A stretch of DNA of 64,000 bases from Sciurus carolinensis (Eukaryota > Chordata > Mammalia > Rodentia > Sciuridae): NCBI RefSeq assembly GCF_902686445.1, contig NC_062232.1, forward strand, positions 14,429,105 to 14,493,104, written 5' to 3'. The notes beneath the pieces are model-generated. The model did not search any database and was not told the DNA's origin. It worked only from the letters and a program-made list of their open reading frames with translations. This document shows positions 57,803 through 60,969 of this stretch, one piece after another; the first letter of the stretch is position 1; each line of letters starts with the position of its first letter. A program made the translations under genes and the position numbers.

Positions 57803-58130
57803 GTTTGTTTAATCCTATTTGTTATACATGACAGCAGAATGCATTTTGATTCATTGTACACGAATGGAATACAACTTTTCATTACTCTGGTTGTACATGA
57901 CGTAGAGTCACACCATTCGTGCAATTATGCATGTACATAGGGTGATGGTGTCCATATCATTCCACTGTCTTTCTCACCTCCTGCCCCCTCCTCTCCCCTC
58001 CCCTCATTCCCCCCTGCCCAATCCAAACTTCCTCCATTCCTCCCTTACATCCCCCCACCTCCACCCCCGTTATACATCAGCATTCGCTTGTCAGAGAAAA
58101 CATTTGGCCTTCGGTTTTGGGGATTGGCTT
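57803..58130 (-). mobile_element. Short L1 3' end with TSD
   Basis: Only an L1 3' UTR and the last ORF2 bases, reverse complement ('cattttgattcattgtacacgaatggaatacaacttttcattactctggttgtacatg' and the C-rich 57965-58070). Flanks TGTGGTGACATAATTTT (57786-57802) and TGTGGTGATGTAATTTG (58131-58147) form a TSD with a few mismatches. 58148-58614 is unassigned. Confidence 0.8.
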
Positions 58131-58649
58131 TGTGGTGATGTAATTTGAATTCTTTCACTGCCTTTGTACTTAGAAGTATAGTGTTGGATATTTTCTGTGG
58201 CAGACACCATTGGCTGCTTGCCCAAGAGCCTAGGCATCCACTATCACCCTAACAAATAGAACCCTGATTTTTGCTCAGATATCAGATAATTATGTGTTCA
58301 AGAAAGTTTGGGACACTGCCCTGCTGCCCCACAGGATGGATATTGAGAAGTCAAAGGCAATCAGAGCAATTCTTCTTGCTGGTGATCGGTTGGGGAAAGA
58401 ACTTGTGACACACTGTTCCAGTCAATGAGACATGAGAGGAAATCTTTTGGAAAAGGGTTTTATTTACTCAAAGAGACAGATTAAGAAACTGGCCTTTCCA
58501 TCTTTGTCTATGACTAGATGGAAATGTGATAGTAGGAACTACTACCTCCATGTTGCAGCCATGAGGGAACAAACACGCAGACCAATGCCAACATGCCAAG
58601 GATTGAAGAGGAGGCAGAAACTAGATTCTTTTTTTTTTGTTTGTTTTTT

Positions 58650-59762
58650 TGTTTAACTTTAATTTCCCTTTTTATTTTTATTTATTTTTTTAAATTTATT
58701 TTTATTGTAAACAAAATGGGATACATGTTGTTTCTCTGTTTGTACATGGAGTAAAGGCATACCATTTGTGTAATCATACATTTAGATAGAGTAATGTTGT
58801 TTGATTCATTCTGTTATTTATTCCCTCCCCCCACCCCTTCCACCCCTCTTTTCCCTCTATACAATCCCTCCTTCCTCCATTTTTGCCCCCCTCCCACCCC
58901 CCCATTATATGTCATCATCTACTTATCAGTGAGATCATTCTTCCTTTGGTTTTTTGAGATTGGCTTATCTCACTTAGCATGATATTCTCCAATTTCATCC
59001 ATTTGCCTGCAAATGCCATAATTTTATTCTGCTTTATGGCTGAGTAATATTCCATTGTATTTTTATACCACAGTTTCTTTATCCATTCATAAATTGAAGG
59101 ACATCTAGGCTGGTTCCACAATCTGGCTATTGTGAGTTGAGCAGCAATGAACATTGATGTGCCTGTATCTCTGTAGTATGCTGATTTTAAGTCCTTTGGG
59201 TATAGGCCAAGGAGTGGGATAGCTGGGTCAAATGGTGGTTCCATTCCAAGTTTTCTAAGGAACCTCCACACTGCTTTCCAGAGTGGCTGCACTAATTTGC
59301 AATCCCACCAGCAATGTATGAGTGTACCTTTGTCCCCACATCCTGACCAACAACTATTGTTGCTTGTATTCTTGATTATCACCATTCTAATTGTGGTGAG
59401 ATGAAATCTTAGGGTAGTTTTGATTTGCATTTCTCTTATTACTAGAGTAGTTGAACATTTTTCATATATCTGTTGCTTGTAGATCTTCTTCTGTGAAGTG
59501 TCTGTTCATTTCCTTAGCCCATTTGTTGATTGGATTATTTGTATTCTTGGTGTAGAGTTTTTTTTTGAGTTCTTTATATATTCTGGAAATCAGTGCTCTA
59601 TCTGAAGTATGAGGGGCAAAGGTTTTATCCCACTCTGTAGGCTCTCTCTTCACATTGCTGATAGTTTCCTTCACTGAGAGAAAGCTTTTTAGTTTGAATC
59701 TATCCCAGTTATTGATTCTTGCTTTTATTTCTTGTGCTATGAGAGTCCTGTTAAGGAAGTCT
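58650..59762 (-). pseudogene. L1 ORF2 C-terminal end and 3' UTR
   Basis: Minus-strand frames 59770-59462 and 59430-58915 carry '[20 protein letters not shown]', '[16 protein letters not shown]', '[20 protein letters not shown]' and '[19 protein letters not shown]'. One frame change lies between them near 59450. The 3' UTR (58910-58690) is C-rich on the plus strand. Confidence 0.9.
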
Positions 59763-60304
59763 ATGGCCATACTACCAAAAGTTCTATACAGATTTAATGC
59801 AATTCCAATTAAAATCCCAATTGATGTACCTCACAGAAATAGAGCAAGCAATCATGAAATTCATCTGGAAGAATAAGAAACCCAGAATAGCTAAAACAAT
59901 CCTTAGCAGGAAGAGCGAAGCAGGGGATATCACAATACCAGAACTTCAACTCTACTACAAAGCAATAGTAACAAAAACAGCATGGTATTGGCACCAAAAT
60001 AGACAGGTAGATCAATGGTACAGAATAGAGGACATGGACACAAACCCAAATAAATACAATTTTCTCATACTAGACAAAGGGGTCAAAAATATGCAATGGA
60101 GAAAAGATAGCCTCTTCAACAAATGGTGCTGGGAAAACTGGAAATCCATATGCAACAGAATGAAACTAAACCCCTATCTCTCACCCTGCACAAAACTCAA
60201 CTCAAAATGGATCAAGGACCTCAGAATCAGACCAGAGACCCTTCATCTTATAGAAGAAAATGTAGGTCCAAATCTTCAACATGTCGGCTTAGGATCAGAC
60301 TTCC
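59763..60304 (+). pseudogene. L1 ORF2 segment, inverted part
   Basis: Plus-strand frames beginning '[20 protein letters not shown]' and then '[20 protein letters not shown]' to 'LQHVGLGSDF' at about 60303. In an unrearranged L1 the next residues are those with which the minus-strand part at 59770 begins, so both parts come from one RNA. Confidence 0.9.
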
Positions 60305-60740
60305 CTTTCTTATTAATGAGAAGGTTCTGTGGTTTCAAGTCTCAATGCGACACCATTCTTCTGTGGCAATAAATTAATCCATGTAGAATTTGGTATAGAA
60401 ACATCAGATACTCAAGGACCAGAGTCAAAGATTTGTCTGTGTAAACGATGTCTTGTAAGGTTACTATGTTTGCATGTTTTAAATCCTTTAAGAGTGAAAC
60501 TTCTCTTTTAGCTGTACTGGGTGTGCCTTCTTTGTGTTCCAAACAGAATTTCCACCAAATTCTCTGTCAGTTTACTTTTTTCTTTATAAACTCTTGCATA
60601 TGTACCCTCCATTGAGATCCATCTATGTTTATGATTTCTGAGACAAACACCTGTCGGTGACTGGACTTCATCAGATGACTTCCAGAAGATTGGTCACTCT
60701 CAACATCTGATCCCATTTTTAGATATTTGTGATCAATATC
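60304..60740 (-). pseudogene. CDK17: PCTAIRE kinase processed fragment (CDK17-like)
   Basis: Minus-strand sequence encodes pieces of a PCTAIRE-type cyclin-dependent kinase. It has 'LKMGSDVESDQSSGS', then in another frame 'SDEVQSPTGVCLRN', then 'SKLTENLVE', then '[20 protein letters not shown]', '[12 protein letters not shown]', '[17 protein letters not shown]' and 'DLKPQNLLI'. The order is that of the protein from its N-terminal region to the catalytic loop, without introns, so it came from mRNA. Two internal stretches are missing (about 55-60 codons before the glycine loop and about 21 codons after EYL), and there are frameshifts and a stop in the HRD region. CDK17 fits better than CDK16 ('DIVYTDKS', 'FLYQIL', 'CHRR'). 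CDK18 is not excluded. No function is expected. Confidence 0.85.
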
Positions 60741-60838
60741 TCCTTGGGGATGGCCAGATCTGCAGTCAAAGAGATCACAGTGCCAGCCTCCGACTCCATG
60801 TCCCCGTTGAACAGAGCCTGGTCCTGCTCTGCACCGCT
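60740..60838 (-). pseudogene. BRAF: BRAF exon 1-like fragment
   Basis: Minus-strand translation gives 'GAEQDQALFNGDMESEAG' and then 'TADLAIPKE'. From memory, the N-terminus of BRAF contains the same QALFNGDME core, an EAG block and an AIPEE end. The match at DNA level is also strong and starts near the TSD with AGCGGTG. It ends with AAGGAG, which corresponds to the last codons of BRAF exon 1. What follows is CDK17-like sequence instead of BRAF exon 2. Confidence 0.75.
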
Positions 60839-60969
60839 CAGAAACTAGGTTCTTGACAATCTCATTAAACTGTTGAATGAACAATCCCTAGAACTTCCTT
60901 CCTCCGAAATTATTACATGAGATGATAAGTGATCTTCCTGTTTAAGCCTCTGCCATTCAAGGCACAGTA

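Follow-up and report, generated by a model that had tools for sequence, protein, structure and literature searches.

The window analysed here (the whole stretch of 64,000 nucleotides of Sciurus carolinensis, contig NC_062232.1, positions 14,429,105 to 14,493,104) contains a segment which, judging from sequence comparison, is very probably a processed retrocopy. Its source would be a BRAF-CDK17 fusion gene with a nested L1, present in several copies and giving rise to alternatively spliced RNAs. A preliminary description had proposed a one-off accident, in which two mRNAs and a twin-primed L1 were joined by template switching during a single insertion. This reading is replaced by a repeat family that keeps a record of the splicing of its parent gene. 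The proposal of one retrotransposition event at the window site still stands, as BRAF exon 1, CDK17 and the inverted L1 lie within one TSD.

The whole element is encoded by the minus strand, with its 5' end at 60838 and the end of its poly(A) at 58631. It is bracketed by 16-base repeats with one mismatch, CAGAAACTAGGTTCTT on its 5' side (60839..60854, plus strand) and CAGAAACTAGATTCTT on its 3' side (58615..58630, plus strand). Their assignment as the TSD, already made in the preliminary description, is confirmed by the repeat match, the comparison of copies and a control in which none of 20000 random 16-mers from the window, draws near the two repeats being skipped, had a counterpart with one mismatch or fewer in the 46-base zone next to the poly(A). 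The poly(A) tail described next to one repeat was likewise read from the sequence, as T on the plus strand, at about 58631..58653.

The 5' part of the element is exon A (60740..60838, minus strand), a 5'-truncated BRAF exon 1 ending in ..GAG at the position of the exon 1 splice donor. This end is common to the copies, and the source exon is followed by a GT donor. The suspected BRAF-like head is real: 34 residues translated from 60838 down to 60737 match human B-raf (PDB chains) with an E value of 5e-4. Among the matches listed with E values of 10 or less, 10 out of 11 are B-raf, and a chance match is thus ruled out. The matched residues are presumably those of human exon 1. Next come exon B1 (60607..60739, minus strand; IVHENLK..RISME), which is found in other copies and lies in the parent-type gene on contig C53 between ..aaacag and gtaac, and the CDK17 kinase exons C1, C2 and C3 (60303..60606, minus strand; GTYATVYK.. 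to ..INEKG). The latter were assigned by protein match and by the copies, and the acceptor and donor of C1 and the acceptor of C3 were read in C53. Exon B2 (57 nt) is skipped, so that the window form is A-B1-C. The kinase body is that of a PCTAIRE kinase, with CDK16 as its best PDB match (E 7e-29). CDK17, the parent named in the preliminary description, is nevertheless the correct one. On the C53 parent locus it scored 426 bits against 303 for CDK16 in a comparison with the human proteins, and CDK16 was rejected.

The remainder is mostly L1. An inverted half (59760..60299, plus strand), which we take to be L1 ORF2, is antisense to the element, and an L1 3' end with an A-rich tail (58671..59759, minus strand) is in sense. 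Both are also present in the copies and in C53. The two opposed parts meet at one breakpoint, as had been described, with 60299-59760 antisense and 59759 to about 58671 sense. Past the L1 tail, the bases AAGGGAAATTAAAGTTA (58654..58670, minus strand) match the C53 sequence exactly and adjoin the true poly(A). The four-part anatomy first proposed is therefore correct in that all four parts are real, but these last 17 bases belong to a CDK17 exon and not to L1. Just outside the element, a second stretch at 58000-58130 weakly resembles an L1 3' end (69% over 132 columns).

The element belongs to a dispersed family. A search of the squirrel's own genome with window positions 60300-60860 gave 72 matches among the best 40 of 469 candidate places. 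Statements on copies rest on 20 of them, fetched with their flanks from those 40 places, and on the window, 21 in total. BRAF exon 1, CDK17 and the two L1 parts are present in every one of the 20 fetched copies. With at most three mismatches allowed, a 29-base pattern spanning the join of CDK17 and L1 was found at 49 places in the genome, and its reversed control at none. Forty-one of these places are on contigs C1-C30 and eight on smaller contigs. Three of the latter lie on C53 beside intron-containing exons, and 46 of the 49 are outside C53. The 49 places are a lower bound because eight of the 40 places of the element search (L012 among them) escape the pattern; the two lists united give 57 places. 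Beyond the fetched copies, these places are known from the matches. The count includes some later duplicates of one insertion, as demonstrated for L022 and L023; close pairs on C13 and C17 are candidates for the same.

Comparison of the flanks showed that L022 and L023 are one insertion later duplicated, and that the other fetched copies are separate insertions. L021 and L026 required closer attention, since their flanks are 81-90% alike and their insertion point is the same. A single duplicated insertion was rejected in this case, and the two are counted separately, because the flanks are L1-like (by eye) and the splice forms differ. They may reflect a reused target site within two L1 copies. 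A TSD of at least 8 nt was found in 17 of the 21 copies, including the window, and none in L013, L015, L016 and L019. Small gaps aside, the window and 18 of the 20 other copies keep the inversion point. L025 has lost it through an internal deletion. In L013 the BRAF, CDK17 and L1 parts are followed by extra L1 in other orientations, and this copy was excluded from the alignment, the divergence counts and the tree. The other 20 copies differ from the column majority by 2.2-7.3% at non-CpG columns.

As is typical of splice forms, the copies vary by entire cassettes, and 11 exon combinations are present among the 21. The blocks are the cassettes X1 (42 nt), X2 (103 nt), X3 (246 nt) and X4 (78 nt), the CDK17 blocks B1 (133 nt), B2 (57 nt) and C (304 nt, equal to C1+C2+C3), and the inverted (540 nt) and 3' (about 1.1 kb) parts of L1. 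The form A-B1-C is shared by the window and L009-L013 (6/21), and A-B1-B2-C by L015-L019 (5/21). L022 and L023 have the form A-X3-B1-B2-C with a B2 that is 11 nt shorter. Each of the remaining forms is represented by one copy: A-X1-B1-C (L014), A-X1-B2-C (L024), A-X2-B1-B2-C (L020), A-B1-B2-C2-C3 (L021), A-B1-X4-B2-C (L025), A-X4-B2-C (L027), A-X3-C with the internal intron of X3 retained (L026), and A-B1-B2-C with 12 nt of X4 after B1 (L028). The shorter X4 of L028 is explained by the further AG sites within this cassette. Two further forms occur in the partly fetched L036 (A-X2-B1-C3) and L040 (A-X3-X2 and on).

The copies form two groups by their 5' ends, defined as the point where homology begins. 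Twelve of the 21 copies begin upstream of the BRAF start codon, ten of them within 39 bases, L019 at -61 and L015 at -252. The other nine begin 21-30 bases into the BRAF coding part. These inner starts follow a GGC-rich run and might mark either a second start site or a point where reverse transcription stopped. The upstream part of L015 aligns with the C53 gene at 82% identity over 385 columns, a count that includes exon A. The upstream region is called the BRAF promoter here because it adjoins exon 1 and is CpG-rich; its likeness to native BRAF is our assumption.

The same exons are found in order and with introns in the gene on C53. On the minus strand, from 1282.7 to 1211.9 kb (about 71 kb), it carries A (1282661-1282535, as aligned, followed by a GT donor), X1 (1280475-1280434), X3 (1237599-1237178), X2 (1231185-1231085), B1 (1224028-1223896), X4+B2 (1216914-1216780), C1 (1215770-1215664) and C3 with the L1 (from 1213652). 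Its exons are bounded by AG acceptors and GT donors at the edges used by the copies. The acceptors of X1, X2, X3, X4 and B1 were read in C53. One base differs between C53 and the copy beside the X2 acceptor, and one among the last bases of A. The introns measure about 1.0-43 kb, and the same exons are contiguous in the copies. Exon C2 was sought in this gene and not found, and the gene as it stands is therefore not the direct parent of the copies that bear C2. Further CDK17 exons are present around the cassettes, coding for residues 39-82 between X2 and B1 and, downstream of the L1, for residues 333-373, 375-405 and 410-453, some with stops. The C53 gene is therefore an intron-containing CDK17 duplicate and not a retrocopy. 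Between X1 and X3, hits spaced by about 459 bases and CpG-rich windows (L047:8177-9315) point to a GC-rich tandem repeat.

The C53 gene also accounts for the L1. Its exon C3 runs ..AAAAGGGAAG straight into the inverted L1 part, and AGAAGGGAAATTAAAGTTAGCAGATTTTGG, which follows the L1 tail, corresponds to the CDK17 exon that encodes ELKLADFG, a stretch of the CDK17 protein. The L1 is thus already 5'-inverted in this gene, where it separates the KG codons of a CDK17 exon from those for ELK. AAGGGAA stands on both of its sides and is plausibly the TSD of the old L1 insertion. The twin priming previously attributed to the window insertion is contradicted, as the inversion was inherited from this older L1. 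Formation of the inversion at the window site was rejected for the same reason, and because 18 of the 20 other copies have it too. Copies end in AAGGGAAATTAAAGTTA followed by poly(A), exactly in the window, L021 and L025 and with one change in L012 and L026. In 13 of the 21 copies CDK17 bases after the L1 tail were recognised within four edits, in several only up to GGGAAATT before the poly(A). Of the eight copies that failed this four-edit test, three retain shorter remnants as judged by eye (L011, L018 and L020), and five show no CDK17 bases past the L1 tail (L009, L013, L019, L022 and L023).

The parent-type gene appears to exist in several copies. A search with the cassette sequences gave clusters, many on small contigs (best 40 of 172 candidates). 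A pattern across the intron/B1 acceptor was found at 19 places in the genome, its reversed form at none. An L1 join lies within 100 kb of three of the 19 (all on C53), and the other 16 are without one; one of the 19, in the C53 gene, was read as sequence. Part of the gene order is repeated at C53 482.7-539 kb (plus strand), C53 1746-1772 kb (minus strand), C232 (minus strand) and C72 (plus strand), according to hit positions rather than end-to-end sequence. Among the best 40 of 101 candidates for the 1.5 kb around exon A, at least 18 places, query included, span at least 1440 of 1501 bases at 75% identity or more. The native BRAF gene may be among them. L015 and L024 group with the C53 gene in a tree built from this gene and 20 copies (L013 being left out), and they share its exon 1 end, ATCATCCAGG or ATCATTCAGG. 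Different gene copies therefore seem to be the parents of different retrocopies. The intron-containing copies of the gene with BRAF-type exon 1 and CDK17 are mostly on small contigs (C53:1205001-1285000, equal to L041-L048; C232, C72 and C59), and five of the 19 sites with the B1 acceptor are on C59. On C15 (4949431-5221475), a stretch of 272 kb contains the BRAF exon 1 region five times, in both orientations.

The history of the family may be reconstructed as follows. From the layout of C53, a DNA duplication would have set the BRAF promoter region and exon 1 upstream of an intron-containing CDK17 copy. A 5'-inverted L1 then inserted in sense into a CDK17 exon at the KG/ELK codon boundary, as C53 shows, and would have supplied the 3' end of the fusion gene. 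According to the structure of the copies, RNA would have been transcribed from the BRAF-type promoter, exon 1 being spliced to varying sets of cassettes and CDK17 exons, and would have read through the L1 to be polyadenylated just past it. The L1 machinery would finally have copied such RNAs into new sites. The copies show TSDs, poly(A) tails and a loss of introns relative to the C53 parent, features that characterise processed retrocopies mobilised by L1. From sequence, we infer an origin from native BRAF and CDK17 by duplication, transcription from the BRAF-type promoter, germline expression and L1 proteins acting in trans. A more far-reaching possibility, which we put forward tentatively, is that the amplified fusion gene is the master of a new composite retrotransposon family. 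Formed by a BRAF promoter, CDK17 exons in varying splice combinations and the 3' end of a captured L1, its RNA might be mobilised by L1 much more efficiently than ordinary mRNAs are. This would have happened repeatedly, with several gene copies as sources, and might continue at present.

Template switching, by which a single insertion event would have joined two mRNAs and a twin-primed L1, can practically be dismissed. One TSD does enclose all four parts. However, the same joins recur at dozens of other sites, and a genomic gene holds the parts in order, BRAF exon 1 and the CDK17 exons being joined at the splice edges of this one intron-containing gene. No template switch is needed for the L1 either, because the RNA would have read through the exon-nested L1 and been cleaved a few bases beyond it. 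The splice edges at the BRAF/CDK17 join would equally be expected had separate BRAF and CDK17 RNAs been trans-spliced and then retrotransposed, and trans-splicing is discussed for human L1-mRNA chimeras (PMC13174262). Such an origin is very unlikely here; on C53 a single strand carries exon A, the cassettes and the CDK17 exons in collinear order, and cis-splicing is therefore enough.

Spread from copy to copy deserves more weight, and is still improbable. The family would then be a self-sustaining non-autonomous retrotransposon with the BRAF 5' end as internal promoter, comparable to SVA_F1, and the gene would be its founder only. L015, which starts some 250 bases ahead of the start codon, includes sequence that precedes exon A in the parent, and the recurrence of A-B1-C in six and of A-B1-B2-C in five of the 21 copies is consistent with copying of copies. 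Exon-derived internal promoter activity has moreover been reported for SVA_F1, as far as the consulted part of PMC6139936 goes. On the other hand, X1-X4 lie between other exons in C53 and vary by copy, so that repeated splicing of an intron-containing RNA is needed. Little promoter would travel with the copies, given the nine that start inside the BRAF coding part and the 11 of the other 12 that start at most 61 bases upstream of the ATG. The tree, with 20 copies and a single parent-type gene, does not discriminate between copy-to-copy and gene-to-copy descent. Repeated retrocopying of spliced RNAs from the fusion gene is preferred.

The principle is already known from SVA_F1, pt_SVA_D6 and chimeras of L1 with host first exons, according to the parts of the literature consulted (PMC6139936, PMC12593883, PMC13174262). 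In the human SVA_F1 (MAST2 exon 1; 84 copies) and the chimpanzee pt_SVA_D6 (STK40 exon 1; 94 copies), the first exon of a serine-threonine kinase was likewise spliced to a mobile-element body which then spread (PMC6139936, in part). As in SVA_F1, the host exon 1 ends at its splice donor and is joined at an acceptor. In place of the SVA domains (hexamer, Alu-like, VNTR, SINE-R), the 21 copies consist of BRAF, CDK17, cassette and L1 blocks, small gaps aside, as judged by blocks rather than by alignment to SVA. One splice event on an existing SVA is thought to have founded SVA_F1 (PMC12593883, in part), whereas the squirrel family has a duplicated multi-exon fusion gene as source, a middle of CDK17 exons and a nested L1 as 3' end, and its 21 copies represent 11 splice forms. 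RAP1GDS1-L1PA2, with four insertions in the human reference (Law and Burns 2026), and similar chimeras resemble it in that a host promoter and first exons were spliced to an intronic L1 and inserted several times (PMC13174262, in part). Their L1s are mostly nearly full length in the text consulted (PMC13174262), whereas the squirrel family contains only about 1.6 kb of L1 and has 46 join places outside C53. Processed pseudogenes share the intronless copy, the poly(A) and the TSD. In contrast to them, the squirrel parent is a chimeric gene in several copies, and its 3' end is itself an L1.

A literature search, made mostly outside subscription papers, found no description of a BRAF-CDK17-L1 family, and a term search of the main text of PMC13174262 gave no occurrence of squirrel, BRAF, sciur, marmot, CDK17 or Ictidomys. 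The squirrel family stands apart by its source, a duplicated multi-exon fusion gene, by its many splice forms and by a 3' end that is a nested L1. On the preferred reading, a fusion gene that arose by DNA duplication can become a source of mobile elements when one of its exons receives an L1. Each dispersed copy is the fossil of an individual spliced RNA, so that genomic DNA preserves a record of how the splicing of one gene changed with time. The family is a further case, after MAST2 and STK40 and this time without SVA, of a GC-rich kinase first exon fronting an L1-type retroposed composite. Hence, it becomes testable whether GC-rich kinase first exons favour germline mobilisation. The amplification of the gene with BRAF-type exon 1 and CDK17 merits study in its own right, e.g., with regard to sex linkage and testis expression.
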